Shown one piece after another: positions 14,958 through 45,444 of a stretch of 64,000 bases of DNA. The translations under genes and the position numbers were made by a program. The stretch is from an uncultured Lachnospiraceae bacterium (lineage in GTDB: Bacteria; Bacillota; Clostridia; Lachnospirales; Lachnospiraceae): assembly GCA_947652925.1 (NCBI GenBank), contig CANTEW010000002.1:1-64000 (forward strand). The letters run 5' to 3'. Each line of letters begins with the position of its first letter. Position 1 is the first letter of the stretch. The notes beneath the pieces are model-generated. The model did not search any database and was not told the DNA's origin. It worked only from the letters and a program-made list of their open reading frames with translations.

Positions 14958-16370
14958 TCAAAAACAATAATCACCTATATCTTTGACTGATACACGGTAA
15001 GAAGATGTCGTGGTTGGCGTCCCACAGTTTTTTACATATGCAAAAAAATCATCACTTTCAAGTATTTCTTTTGCCTCTTTTAAGCTCATCCCATTATCCG
15101 GAAAGCTTTTTATGTATGCTCCCGCATATGGGATCGCATGATCGGACACTCCATAAACACTGACTTTATTTGTGATGACCATTGACAATATTAATTTAGG
15201 GCCAACAACATCGTTTATCGCCTGACTCCGTCCGTATTCAAACCATTTTACATTTTTACTCAATCTGCGTTTTAGCAGTTTTGCTTTATATCTCATCAAA
15301 TATACATAACAGCCCGGGAATTTTTCTTTCAATTCATCTTCTTCATAATGGGTCACACACCTGTCACCGATCTTATATGGAAAAATGATCTTATCATGCC
15401 CTCTATGATCTTTATCATACCTCTTTTCACTTTTCGTACTGGCGGCATCGAACACTATCTCTTTTTCGATCCTATCCTCCCCAACATAATAAAATCTGTC
15501 ATCCAGCTCATCTGTCCTAAAAACATAAACCTCATTACATAAAGTAGCAACACTGTTTGATACCTTAAAATGATCACCAAATCTGCGATGCCCAACCGGT
15601 CCTTTCTCAAATATCCACTTCCCGTTTAAAGATCGTTTATCGATCATCTTGTGAAAGCCATCTTTTTTATTATGGTATGTGACACTACTCCGTTCCTTCT
15701 TATCACATAAGATGATCACCGATGACGTGACTGTATTTGGAAAGACCTGTATCCCCTTAAGATCGATGAGTTCTTTAAGATCCGCTTTTATAAGATTCCG
15801 TATCTCCTCCGCAGATCCATTTCGCAAGATACTATAGGGGATGATATACGCTAAACATCCATCATCCGCCAGATCCCTTAATCCAGCTTCGACAAAAGCA
15901 TAACAATAATCAAAACGCCCTTGTTTACACCCCAAAAATCTTTCCCTCAAAAGATCGCGTTGTTCTATACCAAGATCATGATATGTTATATAAGGAGGAT
16001 TCCCTATGATATATTGGTATTTCCTACCGGGACACTTTAGATAGTCCTGCTCTTTCACATTCCAATCTATTCCTGATAATCCATATTCCAATGCTGTCTG
16101 ATCCAGATTAAAAACACATCTTTTTACACATTTCGGATCAGCATCGTATCCTATGATATGTTTCTGTAATCCCTCAACTATCTCTTGATCACCATAACCT
16201 TCCTGGCGAGCGCTTATAATATACCTCTTTACGACCTCTTTCAATATATTTCCATCACCACAGGAATTTTCCAATACAGATCTATGATAGAGATCTTGCA
16301 CATAACCAACACGATCCAACAGTTCTTCAACATATTCAGGAGGAGTAGGGACTTGACAATTGTTCGCCAT
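14958..16370 (-). CDS. N6-adenine DNA methyltransferase (Eco57I/TaqI type), last gene of a DUF262-HEPN cassette
   Basis: A 470-residue S-adenosylmethionine-dependent DNA adenine methylase. Motif I is LENSCGDGNIL (CGDG at 37-40), motif II IIGYDADP (72-79), and the catalytic motif IV NPPY is at 124-127. The C-terminal half (about 250-470) resembles the TaqI/Eco57I target-recognition region. There is no endonuclease domain, so this is a stand-alone methylase. I chose ATG 16370, because GAGAGG sits 8 bases upstream; the longer frame would start at GTG 16379 immediately after that site. It overlaps the HEPN gene by 35 bases. Methylation may mark self DNA for the cassette. The A/T-rich composition suggests transfer. 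Confidence 0.85.
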   Translation of the reverse strand: MANNCQVPTPPEYVEELLDRVGYVQDLYHRSVLENSCGDGNILKEVVKRYIISARQEGYGDQEIVEGLQKHIIGYDADPKCVKRCVFNLDQTALEYGLSGIDWNVKEQDYLKCPGRKYQYIIGNPPYITYHDLGIEQRDLLRERFLGCKQGRFDYCYAFVEAGLRDLADDGCLAYIIPYSILRNGSAEEIRNLIKADLKELIDLKGIQVFPNTVTSSVIILCDKKERSSVTYHNKKDGFHKMIDKRSLNGKWIFEKGPVGHRRFGDHFKVSNSVATLCNEVYVFRTDELDDRFYYVGEDRIEKEIVFDAASTKSEKRYDKDHRGHDKIIFPYKIGDRCVTHYEEDELKEKFPGCYVYLMRYKAKLLKRRLSKNVKWFEYGRSQAINDVVGPKLILSMVITNKVSVYGVSDHAIPYAGAYIKSFPDNGMSLKEAKEILESDDFFAYVKNCGTPTTTSSYRVSVKDIGDYCF

Positions 16371-17040
16371 GTACTTCACCTCTCAGATATTTTTTGTTAT
16401 CAGCTGCATCTATGATCAGATCTTTATAATCCTCAATGAGCTTCATGATCATCTCAAATGTGATCAGAAAGTCTTCTTTATCCAGATCGGAAGGTTCTCC
16501 GTGAACGATCCTATGTCTATTCGCTAATAAAGAACTATCAATATATGTAGCTTTTGTCTCAAATATATCCGAACTGATCCCTATCGTTTCTAATATTTCT
16601 TTCAATTCTTCTGAGCTTGGATTTGAATGTGTAGAGATAAAACCTTTATCTTCAGAGAATCTTTCCATAAATTTTTTTCCAAAAAGGTCATCATATTTTA
16701 TCAATAACCTTTTATGGACACTATGCTTTTCAGATCTGGAACATGTCCTAAATTCCTGTTCCATTTTTATTGCCGCAAAGTTCTCTTTCAGATCACTGTA
16801 CAAGATCTTTTGCTCAGCAACAAAGCCAATGTAACAATTTGATGCCCTCTTTATAAACCCTTCAAAATGGGCGCACAACAACGCGATACCTGCCCTGAGC
16901 AAAATGGATCCATCTGCTTTATCTTTCTCTACTAAGATCTTCAGCGAGAGCATCTCTTTCTTCCTCCAGGCAAGATCTTGCATCAAAAGTCCTTCTAACC
17001 TTTCAACAGTCTTTATCCTTATGTTATTTGCCACTTGCAA
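16336..17040 (-). CDS. HEPN-domain protein (MAE_28990/MAE_18760-like), probable nuclease
   Basis: A 234-residue all-helical protein. The C-terminal part has the HEPN RNase signature R-x4-6-H as R175-HRIV-H180 within ANRHRIVHGE, and an upstream CAHFEGFIK segment typical of MAE_28990/MAE_18760-type HEPN proteins. This family is repeatedly found in defence and toxin loci next to DUF262 genes. No membrane or signal sequence is seen. The gene overlaps the DUF262 gene by 17 bases and the methylase by 35, so translation is coupled. It is the most probable effector of the cassette; whether it cuts RNA or DNA is inference. AT-rich and unlike the flanking genes. Confidence 0.75.
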   Translation of the reverse strand: MQVANNIRIKTVERLEGLLMQDLAWRKKEMLSLKILVEKDKADGSILLRAGIALLCAHFEGFIKRASNCYIGFVAEQKILYSDLKENFAAIKMEQEFRTCSRSEKHSVHKRLLIKYDDLFGKKFMERFSEDKGFISTHSNPSSEELKEILETIGISSDIFETKATYIDSSLLANRHRIVHGEPSDLDKEDFLITFEMIMKLIEDYKDLIIDAADNKKYLRGEVHGEQLSSPYSS

Positions 17041-18160
17041 AGTTCTCCTTGCTGGATCTCGCTAATCTTTTTATCCTTCCTATGGGCCGGATACCCCTTC
17101 TCGTCGCTGCTATATATTGATCCGAACTATATATCCCCTGGATCAGACCCTTAAGTTCTTCTTTTTTTTCTTGGAAATGATCGATATTCTCTGTCAGACC
17201 TGGGATGATCGCTTCATAAGCTCCTACTAATACAGCACCGCAGCTTTTTTCTTTTCTTTTATCATATTTTTTAAATGCATTCTCATCCATCACTCTATAC
17301 AACAGATCAAATGTTTTTTTGAATACTTCTGATTCTTTTTCAAGATCTATTATGTCCGCGTTGATCAATCTCAAGATCTCATCTGTCAAAAAATTATTAT
17401 AGTTTTCTGAATCACTGACTTCAAGATCCGAATATCTTAAAATAAAATATTTTACAACGAGTTCAAGATATCCCTGTTCATCCGCATCTTTTTCAGAGAT
17501 CGGGATCGCTTTGACAAAATTCTCATACCGGCTCAGATCCCTCATCTTTTTATATATCTCCTCATTTTTCATGACCAATATGCAATTCCGTATCTCCTGA
17601 GGACTCAGATGACTCCCACCTGTGTTCAGACGCTGGAACATCTCATACTGTGCAAACTCATCGCTGCTTTTATCAATGATGATGATCAGTATCTTCGATC
17701 GTTTTATATATCTGCGCTGTACCTCTGTAAGTGACTTTTGCTCATCTTCATCCTCCCAATACTTTCCCTCAAGAGATGGCAGGAACTTTGTACGAGTCAA
17801 CGGCTCCCTTTCCATGATGTCCTTCAATCCACCATCCGTTTCTCCATCATCTGATATCTTTTTCAAGATACCCATGAATTTAAAGATAGTAGATAACCTC
17901 TGCTGTCCGTCGATCAGATTCCATTTTCCCTTTTCATTTTGATATACATAGATCGGTGGGATCGGGATATTCAATAGGATAGATTCTATCAAAGCTGATT
18001 GCTGTGTTATATCCCAACGGAACATCCTCTGATAAATAGGGCTTATATCCAGATCGCCTACCTGATAAAGATTGGCCAATTCTCCGATCGACATTGGATA
18101 ATTATCTGTTTTGATCGCTTTCGACATGTTTTCTATTTCTTTCTGCAAAGTATTTTCCAT
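17024..18160 (-). CDS. DUF262 (GmrS/SspE-type ParB-like) protein
   Basis: A 378-residue protein with the DUF262 hallmarks: YQRMFRWD at 43-50 and IDGQQRLSTIF with DGQQR at 84-88, the ParB/Srx-like nucleotide-binding core. In GmrSD, BrxU and SspE this domain senses DNA modification and hydrolyses NTP. Here the usual C-terminal DUF1524 HNH nuclease is absent: the C-terminal half is helical and Lys-rich with no H-N-H pattern. The nuclease role may therefore be taken by the HEPN partner encoded next. It is the first gene of the cassette, divergent from the NUDIX gene, with a 182-bp AT-rich intergenic region in between. Confidence 0.82.
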   Translation of the reverse strand: MENTLQKEIENMSKAIKTDNYPMSIGELANLYQVGDLDISPIYQRMFRWDITQQSALIESILLNIPIPPIYVYQNEKGKWNLIDGQQRLSTIFKFMGILKKISDDGETDGGLKDIMEREPLTRTKFLPSLEGKYWEDEDEQKSLTEVQRRYIKRSKILIIIIDKSSDEFAQYEMFQRLNTGGSHLSPQEIRNCILVMKNEEIYKKMRDLSRYENFVKAIPISEKDADEQGYLELVVKYFILRYSDLEVSDSENYNNFLTDEILRLINADIIDLEKESEVFKKTFDLLYRVMDENAFKKYDKRKEKSCGAVLVGAYEAIIPGLTENIDHFQEKKEELKGLIQGIYSSDQYIAATRRGIRPIGRIKRLARSSKENFASGK

Positions 18161-18342
18161 ATAGTTTATCCCTCCAAATACTCATTGATACATATTTTTC
18201 CTATCTATGACACTGTTCTTATGATCATAACATATCTACGACTGATCTTCAAAAAGAACTTATCTGATCCTTTCATTATTGACATCCCCCCAAAAATCAT
18301 GTATGATCAATGACCAGATCATACCTCAGAAAGGAGTTCATC

Positions 18343-18921
18343 ATGGATCCTAACAAACACGATAAAGAAGACCTGACATGGGAAGAGGTCCGTACCGAGC
18401 ATCTCATACAGGATGGATGGATAGATTTCCGGCGGTCAGACTACCGTTTCCCGGACGGAAACGTATCCGGCCCTTTTTACAGTTACAGCCGGAAAGACTA
18501 TGTGGTGATCGTTGCATCGGATGGAGATGGGAGATACCTCTGTGTCCGGCAGTTCCGCCAGGGGATAAAAGAGGTGACGACAGAATTTCCCGCGGGCGGG
18601 ATCGAATATACAAAAGAGAGCGGATACAGCACAGTGGATGCTCTAGAGGCAGCCAAAAGGGAGCTGCGGGAAGAGACCGGGTACACATCTGATAAATGGG
18701 GACATCTGCTCACCGTACCCTCCAACGCAACGATCTCAGATAACTATGCGCATATCTATACGGCAAAAGACTGCCGCCGGTCAGGCGCGCAGTCTCTCGA
18801 TGAAACAGAGTTCCTACATATCAAAAAATATACTGCCGCCCAGATCGAGGACTTGATCCGCAAAGGCGGTTTTCAACAGGCGGTCCACATCATGGCATGG
18901 CTCCTGTCACAAAGGTCTTGA
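18343..18921 (+). CDS. NUDIX hydrolase (ADP-ribose pyrophosphatase-like)
   Basis: A 192-residue NUDIX protein likely to hydrolyse ADP-ribose or a similar nucleoside diphosphate derivative. The C-terminal half of the Nudix box is perfect (REL-REETGY), and EFPAGGIE marks its front. About nine extra residues (around YTKESGYSTVD) lie between the conserved Gly and the AAKREL helix, so the canonical GX5E spacing is displaced. The start at ATG 18343 is fixed by AAAGGAG eight bases upstream; an upstream ATG has no such site. It is divergent from the DUF262 gene and its last 49 bases overlap the converging xdhC remnant, whose stop has probably been lost. Confidence 0.85.
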   Translation: MDPNKHDKEDLTWEEVRTEHLIQDGWIDFRRSDYRFPDGNVSGPFYSYSRKDYVVIVASDGDGRYLCVRQFRQGIKEVTTEFPAGGIEYTKESGYSTVDALEAAKRELREETGYTSDKWGHLLTVPSNATISDNYAHIYTAKDCRRSGAQSLDETEFLHIKKYTAAQIEDLIRKGGFQQAVHIMAWLLSQRS

Positions 18922-19770
18922 CACCACACGGCCTCAAGCCCTGCCCGCACCGCGATCAATTCCCCGGCGATACTGACCGCGATCTCCGCCGGCGTCTCCG
19001 CGCCGATCCGTGTTCCGATCGGCATATGGCAGGCTGCGATCTCCTCCCTGGAGAATCCATCCTTTAACAATCTCTCTGTGACTGCAGTGATCTTATTCCT
19101 GCTGCCGATCACACCCACATAGCGGGGGCGGCACGCCAGCACCTGGCGCTGCACCACATAGTCGCTGGAATGACCGCGTGTCATGATACAGACATAATCT
19201 TTTTCACAGATACTCAGATGATCCGCTATCTGCTCCATGTCCCCCACCACCGTGCGGGACGCCATGGGAAACCGCTGGGGACTGCAAAATCCTTCCCGAT
19301 CATCCATGACCACGCAGCGGAACCCCACGCGGGCCAGCACGGGCACCAATTCCCAGGCCACATGGCCTCTGCCAAATATATAGACGGTCCCCGCCTGCAC
19401 CAGCGGCTCGACATAGAGCGTATGGCCTCCTGCCTGATACTGCCGGGCACGGCAGCTGAAGATATCCGGCTCTCTTCCCAACAGCTTCTTCAGCATCCCG
19501 GCAAAAGGCGTCTTTTCCCACCCCTCCCGACTGCAGATACCCATCTGCCAGCAAGTCTCTTCCGAGATATCTAACAACAGCCAGGTATCCTCATCCCGCC
19601 GGAACGCTTCCAGCACCTGCTCACACACACCGGACGGCGCTGTCCTCCGGACTGATATACTGGAAATAGACTGTCACATCTCCCCCGCAGACCATGCCGA
19701 TATCCGACGCCTGATCCCCGGTCAGAGTAAACCCTTCTATATAAGATGTCCTTTCTTTCATGGCTTCCAG
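18873..19770 (-). pseudogene. xdhC/CoxI-family remnant, fused at its 5' end to the permease remnant
   Basis: XdhC proteins help insert sulfurated molybdenum cofactor into xanthine dehydrogenase. This copy lacks its N-terminal domain: the recognisable sequence begins about at LEAMKERTSYIEG and continues GMVCGGDVTVYFQYI, then shifts frame near 19635 (inside a TG-repeat) to CEQVLEAFRRDEDTW. The Rossmann part VYIFGRGHVAWELVPVL and the C-terminal GVIGSRNK...IGAETPAEIAVSI block are present. After SIAGELIAVRAG, where the family normally ends, the frame runs on into sequence antisense to the NUDIX gene, so the original end has been lost. The first part is joined in frame to permease sequence at about 19770, a deletion junction. 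Non-functional. Confidence 0.85.
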
Positions 19771-20749
19771 CGCGATCAGCAAGATCCCTGCCGCCATCCC
19801 CAACACCACTCTGTTGATCACTTTCGTCGTAGTGACAATCCCCACATTCTGGCTGTAACTGGATGTGGGCAGACCACCCAGGAACGCACCAGCACATTGG
19901 TGCATCCATAACCCACGATCGCGCCTTTTAACTCTATATCTGTTGGTTCCCGGTCCATACTCCCTGTGGTGGTCGCCGTAAAATCCCCGATCGCCTGTAT
20001 CGCATTGATGGCAAAAAGGAGTCCCAGCGCCACACAGGAGGACGGTTCAAATCCTACCCCAAAATGCATAAAACTGGGTGTATGGAATATATGCGCCTGC
20101 GCCACCGGGCTCAGATCCACCATCCCCATAAAGCAGCCTATGATATAACCGCCCGCCATCCCTGTCAGGATCGAAGTCAGCTTCAAGAGACCTGTGGTAA
20201 AATGATCCACAAACGTCACAATCGCCAATGTCAGAAAGGCCACGAGCCAATTTTTCCAACTCCCGTAATCAGGACTGGACACGCCCCCCGCCATGTAATT
20301 GATGGCCGTAGGATACAAGGACAGCCCGATCGTAAACACCACAGTGCCCGTCACCAGCGGCGGGAACAGCTTCCGGATCCGCTCGAGAACTGCGCCCCGA
20401 AGATAACGGCGATACTGAAGTCCTCTGCGATAGCCTGCATACTGGCCACATATGCAAAACTCACCCCCATGATCACCGGCAGGCCAGAGCCCAGCCGCAG
20501 GCCGCCCTTCTTCCCCAATGGGAACAGCTGCAAAAAAGTGGAGAGGGCCGGCACCACCAGCGCCGCCTGGATCAAGATCACACGTTCTCCATTATCCAGC
20601 CCTCCCGCCCCCGCCTCGATGATCGCCGGCGTGACACATCCCACGATCATCGCCACCACATGCTGCAGAGCCAGAGGGAGCGACTCACAGATCCCCGGGA
20701 CCCCGTCCAGTCCAAAAATAGAACCCTTTTTCTTCGTACTTTTCTCCAT
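19771..20749 (-). pseudogene. NCS2-family xanthine/uric acid permease, truncated and frameshifted
   Basis: A purine-type nucleobase:cation symporter remnant. It starts normally (IFGLDGVPGICESLPLALQH, then GLRLGSGLPVIMGVSFAYV), shifts frame near 20355 with apparent loss of the segment after FGAQF, resumes with TGTVVFTIGLSLYPTAINYMAGG, and runs through FAINAIQAIGDFTATT (the substrate-binding helix region). Near 19900 it shifts again to GGLPTSSYSQNVGIVTTTKVINR. After MAAGILLI the C-terminal helices are missing and xdhC sequence follows. At least two frameshifts and two deletions make it inactive. It would have imported urate or xanthine for the neighbouring catabolic genes. Confidence 0.85.
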
Positions 20750-20842
20750 CCCTACATACCCCCATACTGTATGTATGATCGATCACTCGATCTATCTATC
20801 CCGCAGGACAGCCTTTGGAGCTACGGGCCGCCTGCTCTTATT

Positions 20843-21457
20843 TTATCCTTTCCCTCTGTCCGCGGCATCTTTTACATGCCCCAGGATGATCTTCTCTGCC
20901 ATCTCAAAATACCCGTCCGCATCAAAATCCTTCTTATCTACCAGCATCTGGATCGACGCCCCCTCCAGGAGCGAAACAGCCAGATAAGGGATCAATTCCT
21001 TCTCCTTCTCATCCATCTCCGGACAGAACCGGATCAAGATCTCCCGGATGCTGTCCCGCCATTCCATATAAGCCGTCTGAAAACGTCCCTGGATCGTGGG
21101 ATTGATCTTGGACTGGACGATGAAATCCAATTCAGCAAAATCATAATCCCTCTTCCTCGTGATCATCTGCTTCTTCTGCTGAAAAAAGACATGGAGCTGT
21201 TCCTCCAGCGTATCGCCGCTCTTTTTCTTCAATGTGTCCTGGAGTGTGTAGAACTCGTTCAGGACATGCTCCTGTAAGCCTTCCAAGAGATCCTCCTTTG
21301 TTTTATAATAATAGTGGACGTTGGACTGCACCATCTGTGCCTCTTCTGCGATCAGGTGCATCCTCGTCCCACTGATCGTCGCTTGGTCTACAACTTTCAG
21401 AGCTGCCTTCAGGATCTTTTCATTTGTATTTGAATACTGTGATGAACCGTCTTTCAT
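20843..21457 (-). CDS. TetR/AcrR-family transcriptional regulator
   Basis: An intact TetR-type repressor of about 204 residues. The N-terminal HTH runs from ILKAALKVVDQA to VQSNVHYYYKTKEDLL, the family's DNA-recognition pattern, and the C-terminal helical ligand domain is complete (FAELDFIVQSKINP, AVSLLEGASIQML). I prefer ATG 21457, which has GGAGG five bases upstream; the open frame extends to 21490. It sits between the permease remnant and ridA in the same direction and probably controlled purine-related genes in this island. Unlike the catabolic genes around it, it shows no lesion. Confidence 0.85.
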   Translation of the reverse strand: MKDGSSQYSNTNEKILKAALKVVDQATISGTRMHLIAEEAQMVQSNVHYYYKTKEDLLEGLQEHVLNEFYTLQDTLKKKSGDTLEEQLHVFFQQKKQMITRKRDYDFAELDFIVQSKINPTIQGRFQTAYMEWRDSIREILIRFCPEMDEKEKELIPYLAVSLLEGASIQMLVDKKDFDADGYFEMAEKIILGHVKDAADRGKG

Positions 21458-21535
21458 GTTTTCCTCCATACCGTTTATTCTCTGATCCATCTATCAGTAT
21501 ATCAATTACACCCCTGTTTGGCAATCTCCTTCCAG

Positions 21536-21913
21536 CTATGCGGTGACCGCCACCGCCTCGATCTCCACCAGCCCGTCTTTCGGGAGCCTTGCCACCTCCA
21601 CACAGGATCTGGCGGGCACTGCATCCCTGAAATACCCGGCGTAGATCTCATTTACCCTGGCAAAATCTCCCATGTCCGCCAGGAAGATCGTCGTCTTGCA
21701 TACATGGTCGAGATCCAATCCGCATCCTTCAAGGATCGTCTTCAGATTCTCCAGGCTCTGCCTGGTCTGGGCTTCTACTCCTTCCGGAAGGGACCCGTCC
21801 GCCGGATCCAGCCCCAGCTGTCCGGAGATGAAGATCATCTCCCCTGTCTTTACCGCATGTACATAAGGGCCGACCGCCGCCGGAGCCCCCTCCACATTTA
21901 TAGATCGTCTCAT
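21536..21913 (-). CDS. ridA: RidA family enamine/imine deaminase
   Basis: A 125-residue intact RidA/YjgF protein: APAAVGPYVHAV, IFISGQLGLDP, QTRQSLENLKTILEGCG, VCKTTIFLADMGDFARVNEIYAGYF and PARSCVEVARLP, with the substrate-binding Arg in the last motif. RidA deaminates reactive 2-aminoacrylate. That fits its neighbourhood, because 2,3-diaminopropionate ammonia-lyase (broken ygeX in this island) releases such an intermediate. Ribosome site AAGGAG upstream. It follows the hydantoinase remnant on the same strand. Its survival may reflect a general protective role. Confidence 0.92.
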   Translation of the reverse strand: MRRSINVEGAPAAVGPYVHAVKTGEMIFISGQLGLDPADGSLPEGVEAQTRQSLENLKTILEGCGLDLDHVCKTTIFLADMGDFARVNEIYAGYFRDAVPARSCVEVARLPKDGLVEIEAVAVTA

Positions 21914-22002
21914 GATCTAAAACTCCTTTCTTGTGCCTGTTATAATGTCTATATTATACAACAGATGTCTGGAAAAATATATATGTCGCGACCGCCTATC
22001 TG

Positions 22003-23298
22003 TTACAACTGCCTTCTCCCCCTGGACAGATATCTTCTGGCTGTCCCTGCGCGCACTTTCCCATCCTCGGCCGCCAGCCTGCCCCGCAGAAAGACTTTCT
22101 GGGCGCGTCTTTTCACCTGTATGCCCTCATAAGGCGTATAGTCCACATTCTGCACCTGCCTTTCCGCCGCGATCGTCCACTCTGCCTCAGGATCCCAGAC
22201 CACCAGATCTGCGTCGCTGCCCGGGGACAGGCTCCCTTTCTTCGGATACATACCGAATACTCTGGCTGGACGCTCTGATAACAGACGGCACATCTGCTCC
22301 ACCGTTGCTCTTCCCACGTTGACGCCAAAATGATAAAACAGAGCCGGACGGTGTTCCACCCCGATCATATCGATCTCATCCCCGGCTACTGCCGTCCACA
22401 GAGCCCTGACATCTTCCTTTTTCCGCAGTGGGGGAGCGCAGACATACGCCGCTCCCCCAAAACCGGGCTGGTCATATACAGAGTCGTCCAGGATGAGATA
22501 CTGGGGGCAGGTCTCCGCGAACACCTGCTGCCCGTCCTCCCGGACCCGCCTCAGTTCCCGAAGTCCCAGCGCACAACTCAGATGTACGATATTGACAGGC
22601 GTCTCTGCTATCTTTGCCAGCGTCAGCAGACGGTGGATAGCTTCCGCTTCCGCCTCCGCCGGACGGCTCTTTGGATGCGGGGCAGGGCTGTCCTCTCTCC
22701 CTCTTTTCAGCCTGGCTGTGACGCCCTAAATGATCTGATGGTCTTCACAGTGGACGCCCACGATCCCGGCCTCCTCTTCCACCGCCGCAAGGATCTCCAT
22801 GATCTCCCTGTCGTCCACCCTCAGGTCCTCATAAGCCATATAGAGCTTATAGGAGGTGACCCCCAGCCGGGCCATGTCCCTGATCTCCGCCCGCACGGCG
22901 GGAGTCCAGTCTGTGATCGACATATGGGACCCATAGTCGCAGCAGGCTTTCCCCTCCGCCAGTCTGTGCCACTTCTCCAGGGCTTTTTTTTAACTCTCAC
23001 CTTTTTCCTGGGTGGTAAAATCCAGGATAGATGTGGTCCCCCCGGCAAGAGCGGCTCTCGTCCCCGAGGCGAAGTCATCAGCCGTATGGAAATCCCCCGC
23101 GTCCAGGTCAAAATGCGTATGCTTGTCGATAAAACTGGGGAAAATGTATCTGCCAGATACATCGACCTCCTGGTCGTCCCCAGCGGACAGATCCTGTCCC
23201 ACCTGCACGATCTTCTCCCTATCGGTCAGAAGATCGGCCCGGAAACATCCGGCGGAAGAGACCAATGTGCCGTTTTTAAATAAATATCTCATGCTCAT
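22003..23298 (-). pseudogene. Hydantoinase/dihydropyrimidinase-type amidohydrolase with two nonsense codons and a deletion
   Basis: A cyclic-amidase gene of the purine island (HyuA/YgeZ position). The start MSMRYLFKNGTLVSS and metal site SFIDKHTHFDLDAG are present. One frame then holds an in-frame TAA (22990-22992, before KKALEKWHRLAEG) and an in-frame TAG (22726-22728, after GVHCEDHQII), with clear family sequence on both sides (LGVTSYKLYMAYED; FAETCPQYLILDD). The late catalytic block reads IGVEHRPALFYHFGV: the usual Asp-His-Cys-Pro is altered to Glu-His-Arg-Pro and about 30 residues before the NPAK-like segment are gone. The C-terminal FGMYPKKGSLSPGSDADLV is recognisable. Surely inactive. 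Confidence 0.88.
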
Positions 23299-23313
23299 AC
23301 CTTCATCTTTTCT

Positions 23314-24605
23314 CTATAGATATAGATAACTGTAGCTCTGCTCCATGGTGAGGATCGTCTGTTTCAGACCTTCCTCCAACGCACATGATGTGTTTTTCAG
23401 ATCATAGACGGCTGTCTGTCCCTCCAGGCGCACTCGCACGCGCATCGCCTGGTGATCCAGCATCACAAATCCCTGGTTGCTGCTGTCCTCAAAGTCTCCT
23501 TCATTTGCAAAAAGGGTGAATTTATCCTGGTACGGCGCGCTGCTGTACGGGCAGAAGCTCTTACGATCCCCACATCCGTTGCACATATAGTCCACATGGA
23601 CGATGACCGGCATCTTATGCCCCGGGATCTGGACGGCCACGTTCGCCCGGTTCGGGCATACATCTACGCAGTTTTCGCAGATATGGCTGCATTCCAGACA
23701 GCGTTCTTTCTCACTGGACACCTCATGGGAATGGCACAAGATACCTTTTTTCTCCGCGGCCGCTCCTATATCGCAGATATCCTCAAGAGGAGCAGGACCC
23801 GCTGTTCTCAAGATCGCGTCGGCGGCGGTCCTGGCATCCCGGATAGCCAGGACGATCGTCGCGGCTCCTGCGGCTCCGTCGCCGATAGCGTAGACGCCTG
23901 CCTCGCTGGTCTCCATGGTGGACGGATCCAGGACCGGGAGGCCCCTGTCGCTGACCTGGATGCCGAAGCGTTCATATACAGCGCTGTCCACCCGTTCCCC
24001 CAGGGAAGCTATGATCGTATCTGCCGGGATGGTCACTTCTCCATCCGTCTCTACCGGACGCTGTCTGCCGCTCTCATCCAACTCGCCCAGGACCACCCGG
24101 CGGCAGGTGAGGAGTCCGTTCTCCTGGACTTTCGGAGCCAGGAGTTCCCGGAACAGCACGCCCTCTTCCAGGGCTTCTGCCAACTCCTCCTCATCGGCGG
24201 GCATGTAACATTTCGTCCTCCTGTAGACCACCGTCACATCTTCCACGCCCTGGATACGTTTTGCCATCCGCGCCGCATCCATGGCTGTGTTCCCGGCGCC
24301 GATCACCACCACATGTTTTCCCAGATCCAGGGCCGCGGGATCTGCTCTGGCAGTCTCCAGGAACTCAACAGCGTTGTATGCCCTCTCTGTATCCACGCCG
24401 ATCGCCAGCACGATCGCGTCATATCCCTGCTCTCTCAGTCCATCCAGGTTGTGTATCTCTGTACCGTTTTCAAAACGGCCTCGCTGCTGATGCGGAAATC
24501 CGGGATCACATGGCGTACTGTGCCCCCAGGTCCACTGGAACGGTCAAACACTCTCACCTGGGCGCCAGCCCGGGCTAGGAATGACGCACAGGCGATCCCC
24601 GCAGG
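23314..24605 (-). pseudogene. ygfK: ygfK remnant (C-terminal glutamate-synthase-like flavoprotein/Fe-S half)
   Basis: YgfK is a large (about 1000 residues) flavin/Fe-S oxidoreductase essential to anaerobic urate breakdown. Only the C-terminal part remains: a first Rossmann segment PAGIACASFLARAGAQV, a frameshift plus deletion near 24470, then AIVLAIGVDTERAYN, the second dinucleotide fold VVVIGAGNTAMDAARMAKR, GVYAIGDGAAGAATIV, and ferredoxin-like clusters. The first cluster CLECSHICENCVDVCP is complete; the second reads CNGCGDRKSFCP, with the third Cys replaced by Arg. The N-terminal half is absent and the 5' end is joined in frame to the ssnA start. Inactive. Confidence 0.88.
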
Positions 24606-24710
24606 CCCCACCTCGCGGATCGTCTTTCCATCCAGCAGCACACCCCCGCCCTGGATCAGAGGATCTTGCGGATCCCTTGTGATGACAGTCCCTTTCCCTA
24701 TAAGGATCAT
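24606..24710 (-). pseudogene. ssnA: ssnA 5' fragment fused to ygfK
   Basis: The first 35 codons (MILIGKGTVITRDPQDP, then GGGVLLDGKTIREVG) match the N-terminus of SsnA, the amidohydrolase of the purine island. At about 24605 the frame runs directly into the ygfK flavoprotein fold (PAGIACAS). The rest of ssnA and the first half of ygfK have therefore been deleted in one event. It was the first gene of the minus-strand arm, with its promoter region shared with the plus-strand regulator. Confidence 0.82.
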
Positions 24711-24855
24711 TTTTTCCCTTCTCCTTTCATATTGACCAGTCTGCACTATTTTATTGACTATTCAATCTAAACATAACTATATTCTATTGAAAGTATAAAG
24801 TTAACACTAAAAACAAAAACATTTTTTTAACCTAAAAAATTTTTAGAGTTTTCTA

Positions 24856-24881
24856 TTGACATCTTTTTTTTCTGGTATGAT
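24856..24881 (+). promoter_or_regulatory. Probable promoter of the plus-strand purine arm
   Basis: TTGACA (24856-24861) and TATGAT (24876-24881) are only 14 bases apart. TGG directly before the second box makes an extended -10, which could compensate for the short spacer. It lies in the 237-bp AT-rich divergent region between ssnA and the YheO-like regulator start. Confidence 0.45.
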
Positions 24882-24947
24882 GGGATCATGACACGAAGTC
24901 ATGACACAAAGATAAGGAAAAACATAAAGACACAGGTGGACGTTTAT

Positions 24948-25592
24948 ATGAGACTATCATTTTTAAAACAGATGGCTAAAGCCCTTTCCGTACAATTCGG
25001 AAAAGACTGTGAGATCGTCATCCATGACCTGACCCGCAAGAGCCTGGGCAGATCTATCGTATATGTAGAAAACGGACATGTGACCGACAGAAAGCCCGGA
25101 GACGGGCCTTCACAGATCGTATTGGAAACTTTGAAAAAAGACCCGTCCAAGATCCAGGACCGTCTCGGCTACCTGACCCGTACCGCAAACGGCAAGACTT
25201 TAAAGTCTTCCACCGTTTTCGTCCGGGACGACGCCGGCGAAAAAGTCCAATATATCTTTTCTATCAATCATGATATAACGAAACTCCTCTATCTGCAGGA
25301 TTCTATCCATGCACTGGTGAGCGGGGAGACTCAGGAAGGCCCTTCCGGCCGCCAGCAGGCCGAACCTGGGAAGATCCACACCAACGTAGCCGACATCCTG
25401 GACGACCTGATCGCACAGTCTGTGGCTCTGGTGGGAAAACCAGCCTCCCTGATGACTAAAGACGAGAAAGTGGAAGCCATACAGTTCCTGAACAACTCCG
25501 GTGCTTTCCTTATCACAAGATCTGGCGATAAAGTATCCCAATATTTCGGGATATCCAAGTACACACTATACAGCTATATCAAATCAGAATAA
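24948..25592 (+). CDS. YheO-like PAS/HTH transcriptional regulator
   Basis: A 214-residue regulator of the YheO type. The N-terminal PAS-like part shows SFLKQMAKALSVQFGKDCEIVIHDL and a conserved FSINHDITKLLYLQ strand. The C-terminal winged/HTH part ends GAFLITRSGDKVSQYFGISKYTLYSYI, the usual DNA-recognition end of the family. I chose ATG 24948 (AGGTGG upstream) because family members begin at this point; the frame extends to 24888. Proteins of this type commonly precede purine or amino-acid catabolic genes in clostridia, and this one leads directly into ygeX, 13 bases away. It is intact while its presumed targets are broken. Confidence 0.82.
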   Translation: MRLSFLKQMAKALSVQFGKDCEIVIHDLTRKSLGRSIVYVENGHVTDRKPGDGPSQIVLETLKKDPSKIQDRLGYLTRTANGKTLKSSTVFVRDDAGEKVQYIFSINHDITKLLYLQDSIHALVSGETQEGPSGRQQAEPGKIHTNVADILDDLIAQSVALVGKPASLMTKDEKVEAIQFLNNSGAFLITRSGDKVSQYFGISKYTLYSYIKSE

Positions 25593-25605
25593 GAAAGGAA
25601 ATCTG

Positions 25606-26814
25606 ATGAGACCGATCAAATGGGTCAAGAACACCATGCCCAAGACAGAAGACGCTGATCTGCGCATCATGGCTCTGGACGAAGTAGAAAAGGCGAGGGC
25701 CTTCCACATGACCATCCCCGGCTATCAGCCGACGCCGCTGGCTCACCTCTCTCGTATGGCCAGCCATCTGGGACTGAAAGACGTCTGTGTGAAAGACGAA
25801 TCCTACCGCTTCGGCTTAAATGCCTTCAAAGTATTGGGCGGCTCTTTCGCCATGGCAAAATACATCGCCAAACAGACTGGGCGCGATATCGCCACACTGG
25901 ATTTCGCCACACTGACGTCCGACCAGCTCCGGGAGGAATTCGGCCAGGCCACATTTTTCACAGCTACGGATGGAAACCATGGGCGCGGCGTTGCCTGAGC
26001 AGCCAACCAGTTGAAGCAAAAAGCCGTTGTCTTCATGCCGAAAGGTTCCACCCAGAACCGCTTAAACCACATCCTGGCGGAAAATGCCGCCGCCACGATC
26101 GAGGAAGTCAACTATGATGCATGTGTCCGTATGGCCGCCACCGAAGCCGCCAAGGTAAAAAACGGCGTTGTAATACAGGACACAGCCTGGAAGGGTTACG
26201 AAGAGATCCCCTCCTGGATCATGCAGGGCTACGGCAGCATGGCCATGGAAGCCGACGAACAGCTCCACCAGCTGGGCATCGACCGACCTACCCATATCTT
26301 CGTACAGGCAGGCGTAGGATCCCTCGCCGGGGGCGTCCAGGGATTCTTCGCCAACCGTTATCCCAAATGTCCGCCCATCGTATGTGTAGTGGAAGCGGAT
26401 ACTGCCGCCTGTCTCTATAAAGGCGCAGCCGCCGGGGACGGAGCAGAATATAATGTGGAAGGCGATATGCCCACGATCATGGCGGGGCTTGCCTGCGGAG
26501 AACCCAACACCATTTCCTGGGACATCCTGAAGGACCATGTCTCCGTATTCGCAGCCGCACCCGACTGGGTAGCAGCCAAAGCCATGCGGATGCTGGCCGC
26601 ACCGATCAAAGGGGATCCCCAGGTGACCTCCGGCGAATCCGGCGCCGTCACCTTCGGCGTACAGTGCGAGGTCATGACAAACCCGGACTACATAGGTTTA
26701 AAAGAGGCTTTGAGACTGGACGGGGATTCACGGGTACTGCTCTTCTCCACCGAAGGGGACACAGATCCCGAACGTTACCAGGAGATCGTATGGGACGGTA
26801 AAGACTACAAATAG
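25606..26814 (+). pseudogene. ygeX: Diaminopropionate ammonia-lyase with one in-frame TGA
   Basis: YgeX is a fold-type II PLP enzyme that splits 2,3-diaminopropionate to pyruvate and ammonia in the anaerobic urate pathway. The gene has full family length (402 codons plus stop). The PLP-lysine region VKDESYRFGLNAFKVLGGSFAM and ATDGNHGRGVA are perfect, then TGA at 25996-25998 replaces the conserved Trp (GVAW to GVA-stop), a single G-to-A change. The same frame continues AANQLKQKAVVFMPKGSTQNR to a normal end, with the GSLAGGVQGF phosphate-binding loop. Ribosome site AAAGGAAA. Otherwise well preserved, so the mutation seems recent; only a truncated protein is expected. Confidence 0.88.
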
Positions 26815-26882
26815 ATGCAAAGGACATCTTTCTGTCTGTATTAGATCGAACAGTCAAACAAATATATGGAGGTATTTTTCTT

Positions 26883-28194
26883 ATGGACTACAACATGATC
26901 AAAACTGATGCTGAAAACTATAAAGCTGATATGACCCGCTTCTTACGGGAGATCGTCAGGCACCCCGGCGAGAGCTGTGATGAAAAAGCACACATCACCC
27001 GCATCGCAGAAGAGATGGAGACTCTGGGATTTGACAAGGTAGAGATCGATCCCATGGGCAACGTATTAGGCTTCATGGGGACCGGTGAAAAACTGATCGC
27101 CTTCGACGCCCACATCGACACTGTAGGGATCGGTAACCGGGACAACTGGACGTTCGATCCCTATGAAGGCTACGAGAACGACGAAGAGATCGGAGGCCGC
27201 GGCGTATCCGACCAGTGCGGCGGCATCGCATCCGCCGTCTATGGTGCCAAGATCATGAAAGACCTTGGGCTCCTGAGCGATAAGTACACAGGCCTGGTCA
27301 CTGGGACTGTGCAGGAAGAGGACTGCGACGGACTCTGCTGGCAGTATATCATTAAAGAAGACAACATCCGTCCGGAATTTGTCGTCTCCACCGAACCTAC
27401 CGACGGCGGCATCTACCGGGGACAGAGAGGGCGCATGGAGATCCGCGTGGATGTGCAAGGCGTCTCCTGCCATGGTTCCGCACCGGAAAGGGGCGACAAT
27501 GCGATCTATAAGATGGCAGACATCCTCCAGGATATCCGCGCCCTGAACGAAAACGACGCCGCAGATGGGACAGCGGTCAAAGGCCTTATGAAGATGTTAG
27601 ATGAAAGATACAACCCAGAGTGGAGAGAAGCGCGCTTCCTGGGCCGGGGTACAGTCACCGCATCTGAGATCTTCTTCACCTCCCCCAGCCGCTGTGCCGT
27701 CGCCGACTCATGCGCCGTCTCTCTAGACCGCCGTATGACTGCCGGAGAGACCTGGGAGAGCTGCCTGGACGAGATCCGCGCCCTGCCCGCTGTGAAAAAA
27801 TACGGCAGCGACGTGACTGTATCCATGTATGACTACGAACGTCCCTCCTATACGGACCTGGTATACCCCATCGAATGCTACTTCCCCACCTGGGTGATTC
27901 CCGGAAGACCACAAAGTGACCAGATCCCTGGAAGAAGCTTATAAAAACCTCTTCGGAGAAGAACGTATCGGGAACGCTGAGACGGAGGCTATGCGAAAAG
28001 CCCGTCCGCTGACTGACAAATGGACTTTCTCCACCAACGGCGTGACCATCATGGGCAGAAACGGCATCCCATGTATCGGTTTCGGCCCGGGCGCAGAGGC
28101 GCAGGCCCACGCGCCCAATGAAAAGACCTGGAAACAAGACCTTGTCACATGTGCGGCCGTCTATGCCGCCCTGCCCACCGTTTACTGTAAGTAA
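26883..28194 (+). pseudogene. ygeY: YgeY-family M20 metallopeptidase with a +1 frameshift
   Basis: YgeY-type M20 peptidases belong to the purine/urate cluster. The first 340 codons are intact, with the zinc-site motif [27 protein letters not shown] and [14 protein letters not shown]. Near 27899-27901 one extra C (ATT-CCC-GGA instead of ATT-CCG-GAA) shifts the frame. The remaining C-terminus continues in the next frame as [18 protein letters not shown] through [15 protein letters not shown], which holds the last metal-site His. Total length fits the family if the base is removed. It follows ygeX by 68 bases and precedes ygeW by 32. Confidence 0.88.
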
Positions 28195-28226
28195 AACCCT
28201 CATATAAAAAGAAAGGATGACCTCTC

Positions 28227-29420
28227 ATGAAAAGATCACAGGACTATATCGATCGATTAAACAGATTAGATTTTAAAGAAATGTACAACAACGACTTCTT
28301 CCTGACCTGGGAAAAGTCCGAGGACAAGCTGGAAGCCGTCTTCACCGTTGCCGATGCCCTCCGCTATATGCGCGAGAACAACATTTCCACAAAAGTATTC
28401 GAGAGCGGCCTGGGCATCTCCCTGTTCCGCGACAACTCCACCCGCACCCGTTTCTCCTTCGCCTCCGCCTGCAACCTTCTGGGCCTGGAAGTGCAGGACC
28501 TGGACGAGGGAAAATCCCAGGTGGCCCACGGAGAGACTGTCCGCGAGACAGCCAACATGATCTCCTTCATGGCAGATGTGATCGGTATCCGCGACGATAT
28601 GTACATCGGCAAAGGGAACACCTATATGCATGAAGTCTCCGACTCTGTAAAACAGGGGAACGAAGACGGGATCCTGGAGCAGCGCCCCACTCTGGTCAAT
28701 CTGCAGTGCGACATCGACCATCCCACCCAGGCCATGGCAGACGCCCTGCATCTGATCCATGAATTCGGCGGCATTGAGAACCTGAAAGGCAAGAAAATAG
28801 CCATGACATGGGCCTACTCACCTTCCTATGGCAAACCTCTCTCTGTCCCCCAGGGTATCATCGGCCTGATGACCCGCTTCGGCATGGACGTGGTGCTGGC
28901 TCATCCGGAGGGTTATGAAGTCATGCCGGAAGTAGAAGAAGTGGCCAAAGAAAACGCCAGAAGATCCGGCGGATCCTTCACCCGCACCAACAGCATGCAA
29001 GAAGCATTCAAAGACGCAGATGTGGTCTACCCCAAGAGCTGGGCTCCGTTCGCCGCTATGGAAAAACGTACGGATCTGTACGGCAAAGGCGACACAGCAG
29101 GCATCGACGCACTTGAAAAAGAGCTGCTGGCCCAGAACGCCAGCCACAAAGACTGGTGATGTACGGAAAGACTGATGAAGACCACAAAAGACGGCAAAGC
29201 CCTGTATCTGCACTGCCTGCCCGCAGACATCAACGACGTGAGCTGTACAGACGGCGAAGTGGAAGCCTCCGTCTTCGACCGCTACCGCAACCCGCTCTAC
29301 AAAGAAGCCAGCTACAAGCCTTACATCATCGCCGCCATGATCTTCCTGAGCAAATTTGAAAACCCACAGGATATCCTGAAAAAACTGGAAGAACGTGCTT
29401 CCAAGAGAGTTTTTAGATAA
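28227..29420 (+). pseudogene. ygeW: YgeW-family knotted carbamoyltransferase with one in-frame TGA
   Basis: A transcarbamoylase of the aspartate/ornithine carbamoyltransferase fold, acting in the urate-degradation cluster. The carbamoyl-phosphate loop is SLFRDNSTRTRFSFASA and the downstream conserved blocks DIDHPTQAMADALHL and WAYSPSYGKPLSVPQG are present. At 29157-29159 an in-frame TGA interrupts the gene after NASHKDW; the same frame continues CTERLMKTTKDGKALYLHC, with the conserved HCLPAD active-site motif, to a normal end. Without the stop the length (397 residues) matches the family. Frame and spacing are otherwise undisturbed. Confidence 0.88.
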
Positions 29421-29432
29421 AAGATCCATAAC

Positions 29433-29855
29433 CGGCGGGTGGTGGCCTCGCCAAAACCCGCCGAGATCGTAGAACTGGACACTGTCAAAGACTTATTAGA
29501 CGCCGGTGAGATCGTCATCGCCAGCGGAGGCGTCGGCGCCGTGATCGACAAAGACTTCGCCAGCTGCCTCCTGGCCAAAGAATTGGACGCCGATCTCCTG
29601 ATCGTCCTCACCGCCGTAGAAAAAGTGGCCCTCCACTTCGGCACCCCTCAGGAAACCTGGCTGGGAGAGATCACTCCTGCACAGGCCGAGAGCTATGCTT
29701 CCGAAGGACATTTCGCCCCCGGCTCCATGCTCCCGAAAGTACAGGCCGGTATCTCTTTCGCATCTTCCGCGCCTGGCCGCACCGCTCTGATCACATTATT
29801 ACAAAAAGCAAAAGACGGCGTGGACGGAAAGACCGGGACGCGTATCGTAGGATAG
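29433..29855 (+). pseudogene. Carbamate kinase remnant, N-terminal half deleted
   Basis: Carbamate kinase makes ATP from carbamoyl phosphate, the energy-yielding step after YgeW. Only the C-terminal part is present. Homology begins abruptly at 29433 with RRVVASPKP, 13 bases after the ygeW stop, so about 170 residues are missing. The catalytic AVIDKDFASCLLAKEL, LIVLTAVEKV and HFAPGSMLPKVQAGI motifs remain, but the glycine loop IVIASGGVGAVID has lost about 13-17 residues that normally separate GGGGIP from GVEAVID. The frame is open from a GTG at 29439 but the product cannot be active. Confidence 0.88.
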
Positions 29856-29975: not shown

Positions 29976-31373
29976 ATGCATCCACAGACAAATACAGTCT
30001 TATTTGAAAAAGAGACCGTCCCTTCCGCCGTGATGAAGCTTGCGGTCCCTACGATCGTCAGTTCGCTCGTCATGGTGATCTATAATCTTGCAGATACTTA
30101 TTTTGTGGGTCTGCTCAATGACCCTGTCCAGACAGCCGCCGTCACCCTGGCAGGTCCCGCTCTGCTGGCATTTAACGCGGTCAACAATCTATTCGGCGTG
30201 GGGACTTCCAGCGCCATGAGCCGTCTGCTGGGTAAAGGCGATACGAAAGCAGTCAAAGACTGTTCCGCCTTTGGGTTTTATTGCGCACTGCTCTGTGCAG
30301 TCCTGTTCTCTGTCTTTACATGGATATCCCAGGATCCACTGATCCGCCTTTTGGGAGCGGATGCCGACAATCTCGCGGCCACTGCCGGTTATGTGAGATG
30401 GGCGATCTCCCTTGGCGCAGTCCCCTCTATCCTGAATGTGGTCTTTGCCTATCTTGTCCGTTCTGAGGGAAATTCCCTCCACGCCAGCATAGGCACCATG
30501 AGCGGATGCCTGCTGAACATGGTCCTGGATCCTATCTTTATCCTGCCCTGGGGACTGGATATGGGGGCGGCCGGTGCAGGGATGGCCACGTGCCTCTCCA
30601 ACTGCGCCGCATGCCTGTATTTTCTCATCCTGCTCTATGTAAGGAGAAAGACCACCTTCGTATGCATCGATCCGAGACGGATCTCATTCCAAAGATCCAT
30701 CGCCGCCGATATATTCGGCATAGGTATCCCGGCAGCTATACAGAATCTCCTGAATGTAACAGGCATGACAGTATTCAATAATTTTGCCATGGCTTATGGT
30801 TCAGAAGTGGTGGCGGCCATGGGGATCGTCCAGAAGGTCCAGATGGTGCCCGTGCAGATCGTGCTGGGCGGGGCGCAGGGAATCATGCCTTTTATCGGAT
30901 ATAACCATGCAAAAGGGGACCGTGGACGGATGAAGGAAGCCATCTTTTATCTTTTAAAACGTGCGCTCCTCCTCATGGCGGCTGTGGTCGTCATCGGGAC
31001 CGCTTTTTCCAGGAGCCTGGTCCGCTTTTTTATCAAAACAGACACTGTAGTCGCATATGGTTCCCGGTTCCTGATCGGTTTTTTGCTGGCTCTGCCTTTT
31101 ATATGTATTGATTATGTGACGGTGGGCGTCTTCCAGGCGATCGGAGATGGAAAAAGGTCCCTTCTGTTCGCGGTGCTGCGGAAGATCATCCTGGAGATCC
31201 CCGCACTGGTACTCCTGGACCATCTCATACCCCTGTATGGTATGCCGTATGCTTCCATGTGCGCGGAGATCATCCTGGCAGCGCTGGCATTGAAGATGCT
31301 GCATGATATCTTATCCGTCCGGAAAAATGTTCAGGGTCACGATCGCACCGACCACCAGGACAACTCCCGTTAA
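29976..31373 (+). CDS. MATE-family multidrug/cation efflux transporter
   Basis: A 465-residue, 12-helix membrane protein of the MATE (NorM/DinF) family, which exports organic cations in exchange for H+ or Na+. Family traits include the opening LAVPTIVSSLVMVIYNLADTYFVG, AFNAVNNLFGVGTSSAMSRLLGKGD, and the mirrored second-half IGIPAAIQNLLNVTGMTVFNNFA. AAGGAG lies upstream of the ATG. The last 63 bases overlap the converging EamA transporter gene, so the hydrophilic C-terminal tail (after LSVRKN) is of doubtful importance. Its own upstream region follows the purine-arm terminator, so it is not part of that operon. Confidence 0.9.
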   Translation: MHPQTNTVLFEKETVPSAVMKLAVPTIVSSLVMVIYNLADTYFVGLLNDPVQTAAVTLAGPALLAFNAVNNLFGVGTSSAMSRLLGKGDTKAVKDCSAFGFYCALLCAVLFSVFTWISQDPLIRLLGADADNLAATAGYVRWAISLGAVPSILNVVFAYLVRSEGNSLHASIGTMSGCLLNMVLDPIFILPWGLDMGAAGAGMATCLSNCAACLYFLILLYVRRKTTFVCIDPRRISFQRSIAADIFGIGIPAAIQNLLNVTGMTVFNNFAMAYGSEVVAAMGIVQKVQMVPVQIVLGGAQGIMPFIGYNHAKGDRGRMKEAIFYLLKRALLLMAAVVVIGTAFSRSLVRFFIKTDTVVAYGSRFLIGFLLALPFICIDYVTVGVFQAIGDGKRSLLFAVLRKIILEIPALVLLDHLIPLYGMPYASMCAEIILAALALKMLHDILSVRKNVQGHDRTDHQDNSR

Positions 31374-41298: not shown

Positions 41299-41315
41299 TA
41301 TTTGGAGGTATGGAC

Positions 41316-44211: not shown

Positions 44212-45444
44212 GATATCATATTCCTCCATACTCTGATCCAGTTGTACATATAATACTTCACGGGAATGGGGAGCGCTCTCCCGATGCCTGCCCTCTGTGT
44301 CCAGCAATCCCTGGACCACAGCCTTTATATCTGAGCCATCCGGCTTCATGATCTCTATAGTATCTCCTACAGAGAACTTATTCTTCTGGGTGATCCGGCC
44401 AAGCCCCCGGCTGTCCACAGCTTCCACGCGACCCAGATACGTGTACCCTCTCATATAAGTACTCTCATCATATATCTGCGTATGTTCGTTCGGTTTGCCA
44501 TAAAAAAATCCCGTGGTAAACTGACGATACGTACAGCCTCCGATCTGCTCCCGGTACCAGTCCATATTTTCCCTATACTTCTCCACACTCTCCAGACAGT
44601 CGTCGATCGCTCTACGGTACGTCCGCGCCACGGTAGCCACATAAAGTGCCGCCCGCATACGTCCTTCTATCTTAAAGCTGTCGATGCCCGCCCCCATAAG
44701 ATCGTCTATATGCTCGATCATACACAGATCCTTTGAGTTGAACAGATACGTCCCTCTGTCATTCTCATACACGGGCAGATATTCGCCGGGCCTCTGCTCC
44801 TCCACCACCGCGTATTTCCAGCGGCAGGGATGGGTACAGGCTCCCTGGTTGGCGTCCCGCCCGGTAAGATAATTGCTGAGCAGACATCTGCCAGAATAAG
44901 ATATGCACATAGCACCGTGGATAAAACTCTCGATCTCCATATCCGGCGGAATCTTCCCACGGATCTGCCGTATCTCTTCCAGAGACAGCTCCCTGGCGGA
45001 AACAACACGCTTCGCCCCCATCCGGTGCCAGAACAGATACGTTCCATAATTCGTATTATTTGCCTGGGTGCTGATATGCCGTTCGATCTCAGGACAGATC
45101 TCACAGGCAATATCATAGATGCCCGGATCCGAGATGATCAGTGCATCCGGCTTTATCTCCTTTAATTCCTGAAAGTACGCACGGACTCCCTCCAGATCCT
45201 GGTTATGGGCCAGGATATTCGCCGTCACATATACTTTCACTCCACGCTGATGGGCAAAGGAGATCCCCTCCTGGATCTCTCCCATGGAGAAATTATGGGC
45301 CTTGGCCCGCAGCCCATAAGCCTCACCGCCCACATACACAGCGTCTGCCCCGTAGATCACAGCTATCTTCAGCACATCCAGACTATTGGCTGGTATGAGC
45401 AGTTCCGGTCTCTTCCTTTTGATCTCGTCCAATCCTCCCTCCAT
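44194..45444 (-). CDS. trhP: U32 peptidase-family tRNA hydroxylation protein (TrhP-like)
   Basis: A 416-residue U32-family protein. Family traits are RPELLIPANSLDVLKIAVIYGADAVYVGG, the conserved Cys set in SYSGRCLLSNYLTGRDANQGAC and CRWKY (iron-sulfur ligands), and SFKIEGRMR. In bacteria these proteins (YrrN/YrrO, TrhP) hydroxylate the tRNA wobble uridine. That fits the upstream neighbour trmR, which methylates the same base. The exact start is uncertain: GTG 45450, ATG 45444 and a TTG after GAGGGAGG (about 45432) are candidates; any choice overlaps the trmR C-terminus. Last gene of the long minus-strand operon. Confidence 0.85.
   Translation of the reverse strand: MEGGLDEIKRKRPELLIPANSLDVLKIAVIYGADAVYVGGEAYGLRAKAHNFSMGEIQEGISFAHQRGVKVYVTANILAHNQDLEGVRAYFQELKEIKPDALIISDPGIYDIACEICPEIERHISTQANNTNYGTYLFWHRMGAKRVVSARELSLEEIRQIRGKIPPDMEIESFIHGAMCISYSGRCLLSNYLTGRDANQGACTHPCRWKYAVVEEQRPGEYLPVYENDRGTYLFNSKDLCMIEHIDDLMGAGIDSFKIEGRMRAALYVATVARTYRRAIDDCLESVEKYRENMDWYREQIGGCTYRQFTTGFFYGKPNEHTQIYDESTYMRGYTYLGRVEAVDSRGLGRITQKNKFSVGDTIEIMKPDGSDIKAVVQGLLDTEGRHRESAPHSREVLYVQLDQSMEEYDILRREE

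Follow-up and report, generated by a model that had tools for sequence, protein, structure and literature searches.

We examined an island of about 11 kb that carries homologues of the genes for reductive (anaerobic) urate degradation and lies on contig C2 (CANTEW010000002.1) of an uncultured Lachnospiraceae bacterium (GenBank assembly GCA_947652925.1). This source genome, labeled G000, comprises 2.92 Mb in 100 contigs and is 98% complete; the whole stretch analyzed, bases 1-64000 of the contig, is referred to as the window. The genes bordering the island encode a NUDIX protein (18310-18921) and a MATE transporter (29976-31373). Its minus-strand genes are xdhC, an NCS2 permease gene, tetR, ridA, a hydantoinase gene, ygfK, and ssnA, and its plus-strand genes are a YheO-like regulator gene, ygeX, ygeY, ygeW, and a carbamate kinase gene. 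Matches to NCBIfam were obtained for YgfK (TIGR03315), D-hydantoinase (TIGR02033), YgeW (TIGR03316), YgeY (TIGR03526), and YgeX (TIGR03528), together with a weak one, over 36 residues, for the SsnA remnant (NF005540). Homologues of YgfK, SsnA, hydantoinase, YgeW, YgeY, and YgeX, which mark a YgfK-type cluster by descent, are found side by side. Many gut microbes rely on genes of this kind to degrade uric acid in the absence of oxygen.

According to two reports (PMC12507026; PMC12990295), a working cluster of this kind imports urate, reduces it by XdhD with XdhC as a maturation factor, and dearomatizes the product by YgfK, after which SsnA and hydantoinase open the rings, YgeW with carbamate kinase and YgeY remove the ureido groups, and YgeX splits diaminopropionate to pyruvate. 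XdhD is a requirement for urate reduction (PMC12507026; PMC12990295), and the biochemical reconstruction of the pathway dates from as late as 2025.

Frame-aware alignment of relatives' proteins with the window DNA showed that all nine enzyme and transport genes of the island (9/9) are broken. On the minus strand, the gene for the XdhC-family molybdenum-hydroxylase maturation factor (18873..19776) lacks about 55 codons at the 5' end and has a frameshift near 19643. The NCS2 xanthine/urate permease gene (19771..20761) has a frameshift near 19890, a 12-codon deletion with a frameshift near 20390, and a loss of about 107 codons at the 3' end, where the break meets the 5'-truncated xdhC remnant. 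The D-hydantoinase/dihydropyrimidinase (HyuA) gene (22006..23295) carries in-frame stops at 22728 and 22992 and a 28-codon deletion near 22351. The first 540 or so of the 1002 codons of ygfK (23317..24605) are absent, and the rest contains a frameshift near 24459 and gaps of 14 and 8 codons. Only codons 1-35 of the 443 of ssnA (24606..24710) are left, fused to the middle of ygfK, and this junction was apparently made by one deletion.

The right arm, on the plus strand, is less damaged than the left. The gene for 2,3-diaminopropionate ammonia-lyase, ygeX (25603..26808), has a single in-frame TGA at 25996; that for the M20-family hydrolase YgeY (26883..28191) a single frameshift near 27901; and that for the knotted carbamoyltransferase YgeW (28227..29414) a single in-frame TGA at 29157. 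The carbamate kinase gene (29433..29852) is half gone, with 158 of 312 codons absent at the 5' end and a 14-codon deletion near 29528. A working urate-degradation pathway would have open reading frames (ORFs) for all its enzymes, which the island does not offer. A preliminary description made from the letters alone had named these genes, reported lesions in eight catabolic or transport genes and in carbamate kinase, and spoken of a graded series of losses; the identities and the lesions were borne out by the alignments, and the damage is indeed graded, from one stop in ygeX up to the absence of 92% of ssnA. On these sequence comparisons, the island is very probably a degraded remnant of a YgfK-type reductive urate-degradation cluster, and the strain would no longer use urate by the YgfK-type route.

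Three genes are whole in G000, and each has a family match: a TetR-family regulator gene (20843..21490, minus strand, 215 residues), a gene for a RidA-family enamine/imine deaminase (21536..21913, minus strand, 125 residues), and the YheO-like regulator gene (24888..25592, plus strand, 234 residues, with PAS (PF08348) and HTH_22 (PF13309) domains). The preliminary description had called them intact, and all three are open. As a sign that they are being kept, however, this is weak: they make up 15.8% of the 10,983 bases taken as the island span, in which 15 events were counted, and their escape by chance has a probability of p = 0.076. The island might keep a reduced role, with RidA and the two regulators under selection for another function, and the three genes also align without lesion in G004, one of four other genomes of the genus (labeled G001 to G004), where the ratio of nonsynonymous to synonymous divergence (omega) between G000 and G004 is low, at 0.047 for RidA and 0.084 for YheO. 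Low omega says little here, however, as the broken genes also have low values (0.037-0.211), and together with the probability of chance escape this leaves such a reduced role unlikely.

Among the island genes, no XdhD-type molybdenum reductase (XdhD) was seen. A search of the genus with the MoCoBD_1 family returned for G000 only two pieces, which lie on contig C1 in frames that differ, and these belong to a broken xdhD at about 168.7-170.9 kb of that contig (L129 5681-7934; L-numbers denote individual loci fetched from genomes), beside glycosyltransferase-like genes. Frame-aware alignment of this copy covers residues 49 to 789 of 867, both ends being lost, and contains a frameshift next to a gap of 10 codons; a comparison of ORF lists by eye indicated that the 5' loss removes the cysteine-rich part of the [2Fe-2S] domain. 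Because the homologue in G004 adjoins carbamate kinase, a rearrangement is suggested to have separated xdhD from the island in G000. The island is thus not complete, as it had been called at first, since the entry enzyme lies on another contig and is itself broken; with xdhD and the island enzymes all broken, the pathway is broken from the first step to the last.

A second intact copy, whose presence the preliminary description had proposed to check, was not found for any of the six enzymes searched by family elsewhere in the assembly (YgfK, SsnA, YgeX, YgeY, YgeW, and XdhD, but not xdhC, the permease, hydantoinase, or carbamate kinase). There was no YgfK match over the cut-off elsewhere in G000, and even the window's own piece fell below it; SsnA gave none over the cut-off anywhere in the assembly; YgeW and YgeX gave none elsewhere; YgeY gave only the window's own piece; and the MoCoBD_1 search returned no intact XdhD but the broken copy only.

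Since the genome is a 100-contig assembly, and three genes (ygeX, ygeY, and ygeW) carry one small lesion each, we considered sequencing or assembly error as the source of the apparent lesions. Base-calling cannot explain why hundreds of bases are gone from ssnA, ygfK, the permease, and carbamate kinase; xdhD is broken on another contig as well; and the genes flanking the island are open. A Pfam match over ≥85% of the profile was obtained for 18 of 20 chosen flank proteins, including carbon monoxide dehydrogenase and acetyl-CoA synthase. When open frames of G004 were mapped to the window flank, a control drawing on 6 of 9 loci, 13 of 15 were without stop or frameshift; the other two had one lesion each, at residue 31 or 13 of a frame read from stop to stop, where it may precede the true start, and a gap of 11 or 13 codons was present in two further frames. 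Because these flank controls are open, error was rejected as the cause, and we regard it as very improbable.

Both single stops, in ygeX and ygeW, are TGA, and a tRNA for selenocysteine (tRNA-Sec) was detected above the gathering score in three of the five genus genomes (G000, G001, and G004), so that both proteins might be made by recoding of TGA as Trp or selenocysteine. However, the residue at the YgeW site varies among 80 relatives (A in 47, C in 26, E in 5, and T in 2), and Cys/Sec is therefore not conserved there; at the YgeX site, all 69 of the relatives' copies examined have Trp. No stable stem follows either TGA, since the 50 bases starting there do not fold better than shuffled sequences (z = +0.88 and +1.24). 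TGA terminates 11 of 37 flank ORFs and is therefore a stop here. TGA recoding was rejected on the grounds of site variability, the lack of a stem, and the use of TGA to end flank ORFs, and YgeW, with its variable site and no stable stem, does not qualify as a selenoprotein despite tRNA-Sec. The other island genes would stay broken regardless, and recoding is scarcely credible as an explanation.

G004 carries a closely related island, on contigs C33 and C10, with the same gene set, including the interleaved TetR, RidA, and YheO genes. Its identity to the window pieces ranges from about 60% (xdhC) up to 91% (RidA and YgeY), and is 83% over 206 residues for TetR. In this island, the permease is interrupted by a stop, ygfK is frameshifted, ygeW has lost its 5' part, carbamate kinase contains both a stop and a frameshift, and xdhD has a frameshift and a 3' loss, whereas hydantoinase, ssnA, ygeX, and ygeY aligned without stop or frameshift. 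In xdhC there was one frameshift call, at reference residue 28, which was taken as the start region. None of the lesions comparable between G000 and G004 coincide; some G004 lesion sites fall in stretches absent from G000 and are not comparable. Parallel loss within one genus is thus likely. In the same G004 island (L112 4375-6603), the permease remnant continues in frame into a 742-residue chimera, apparently made by deletions, of the permease C-terminal part, a dihydropyrimidine-dehydrogenase domain II, a fragment of a flavin adenine dinucleotide (FAD) domain, and an [FeFe] hydrogenase.

As for the other congeners, YgfK, SsnA, YgeX, YgeY, and MoCoBD_1 gave no match over the cut-off in G001 or G002. 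G003, a genome of poor quality (61% complete in about 380 contigs), has a more diverged version of the island, in which the pieces are open except for one frameshift call at permease residue 14, and in which XdhD is open.

Had the island genes been free from selection for long, an excess of private amino-acid changes would be expected in G000. In eight broken genes taken together, such changes numbered 128 in G000 versus 133 in G004, and branch counts of single-nucleotide changes (nonsynonymous to synonymous) were 40:283 versus 25:248 (p = 0.24); these counts omit ssnA and xdhD and take in only the C-terminal part of ygfK. The flank set of this comparison consisted of 15 ORFs picked for openness, which makes it circular for lesion counts, and two of the 15 were dropped, being without a match; in the alignment to G004, one flank gene (45383-46090) showed a frameshift and a stop close to its end. 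Because G004 decays too, the right arm was re-compared with locus L024 of bacterium 1XD21-70, whose frames are open. With L026 as the outgroup, 28 of 1040 sites had changed in G000 and 21 of 1033 in L024 (p = 0.39), and with L057 the values were 23 of 1006 and 20 of 1003 (p = 0.76). All of these comparisons lean slightly to more change in G000, and none is significant. The genes thus have the features of a recent pseudogene cluster, namely, disabling lesions and no detectable excess of amino-acid change, and for this reason the inactivation looks recent on the substitution clock, in agreement with the recent loss first proposed.

As a possible course of events, relaxed selection, under little urate or with other energy sources, may have allowed stops, frameshifts, and deletions to be fixed, and the larger deletions would have fused neighbors, ssnA to ygfK and the permease to xdhC. 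Since G004 decays by different lesions, such relaxation appears to recur in the genus. A stronger claim would be that the loss is favored by selection and not merely tolerated, so that islands in two species were disabled independently and faster than by neutral drift, in both arms and xdhD, the pathway being now costly. The large number of disabling events, set against ordinary amino-acid change that is not detectably raised, the difference of the G004 lesions from those of G000, and the lack of cluster enzymes over the cut-off in G001 and G002 would fit with recurrent favored loss. On a rough estimate, however, a brief phase of neutrality could yield about as many stops as the four seen, and a neutral model with many deletions also fits; absence in G001 and G002 need not mean loss, and the comparison covers one genome per species, not the population level. 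Favored loss is therefore considered unlikely, both as a selective advantage of the loss and as independent disabling faster than drift.

Regarding the origin of the island, synonymous divergence (dS) between G000 and G004 was lower in 10 island genes (0.64-1.36), among them RidA and YheO, which are intact, than across 13 genes of the flank, for which two saturated values were entered as 9 (Mann-Whitney p = 0.0004). In addition, G001, which is without the island, is nearest to G000 by dS for GltD, IlvA, and MoaA. These values hint that the island may have moved between lineages. A MATE homologue lies directly beyond carbamate kinase in G000 and about 3.7 kb beyond it in G003, and this common neighbor argues for one location. 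No empty island site was shown in G001, where the flank matches are scattered over several contigs. With either origin, the comparable lesions of G000 and G004 differ.

Several points weigh against a lost pathway and its recent date. Each of ygeX, ygeY, and ygeW would be spared if its stop were leaky or if a single assembly error had occurred in it, although such an escape would not hold for ygfK, ssnA, hydantoinase, the permease, or carbamate kinase. The sole other match in the DNA search was one of 58 bases to the island carbamate kinase, on contig C43 at about 20.4-20.5 kb (L002/L117), which probably marks a separate carbamate kinase gene. By the completeness estimate, the assembly lacks about 2% of the genome. 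The search for substitutes took in SsnA, which is called a robust marker of reductive urate clusters in one report (PMC12507026), and not the C. difficile-type alternatives UacX and UacY. As for the date, the G004 comparison is confounded by the decay of G004 itself, and that with L024 is limited to the right arm.

The process is ordinary pathway pseudogenization, in which the system and the mechanism are known, and not a new system. The enzyme families and the YgfK variant are like those of the Escherichia coli cluster (xdhD-ygfM, ygfK, ssnA, hyuA, ygeW, yqeA, ygeY, and ygeX, as listed in PMC12507026); unlike in that cluster, all enzyme and transport genes of the island are broken, XdhD is on another contig, and TetR, RidA, and YheO-like genes are interleaved. 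The nearest named relative with open frames is the ygeX-ygeY-ygeW-carbamate kinase block of bacterium 1XD21-70, with identities over the aligned pieces of 93% for YgeW, 91% for YgeY, and 91% for YgeX and with a YheO-like regulator upstream of the block, as in the window; the xdhC, permease, hydantoinase, ygfK, and ssnA side was not seen in the 10 kb upstream examined. By YgeW, this bacterium is also the nearest named record, followed by uncultured Eubacterium, Lachnospiraceae, and Mediterraneibacter-type genomes.

Such damage was rare among 80 relatives' loci, which were the best YgeW matches and are hence biased toward good copies. Both ygeW and ygeY were found at all 80 loci, carbamate kinase at 79, and ygeX at 69, and with losses at contig edges left out of the count, the copies found in 77 of 80 loci were without stop, frameshift, or internal truncation. 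Ten loci were flagged, of which three (L025, L032, and L085) had such a lesion, and seven had only 8-22-codon gaps at the same two ygeY loops, which were not counted as broken. In L025, ygeX is truncated and ygeY has a TGA and a frameshift, making this locus a possible third decaying case. In a wider set of 200 family genomes, YgeW over the cut-off was found in 33 (34 matches), with a stop in only 1 of 34, the window's own; this count registers stops and leaves aside frameshifts and copies whose shortness keeps them below the cut-off.

Two other loci of the window were also recorded. Adjoining the island, 14958-18160 encodes an Eco57I-type methylase, a 234-residue protein without a PADLOC match, and a GmrSD_N (DUF262) protein with PADLOC matches to NsnA and PD-T4-2_A, and it is a candidate defense locus. 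At 39403-43451, the genes for a carbon monoxide dehydrogenase (Prismane family) and acetyl-CoA synthase beta are adjacent and both open, which suggests acetogenic metabolism.

Decay of this cluster in a gut anaerobe was not found among the titles and abstract openings listed from the literature, and because some listings took in only a share of the matching papers, this is a weak negative. The present case is of interest for a thorough and recent loss, for a second decaying island in the genus, and for a warning to marker-gene surveys. At least one survey detects the cluster by a six-marker-gene rule (PMC12542679), and the YgeW of the window, despite its stop, reaches 799.7 bits, well above the cut-off of 500; such a genome could therefore be wrongly counted among urate degraders in a presence-based gene survey. 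Furthermore, G000 and G004 form a natural pair for comparing the timing and the causes of the loss of urate use in a gut bacterium.

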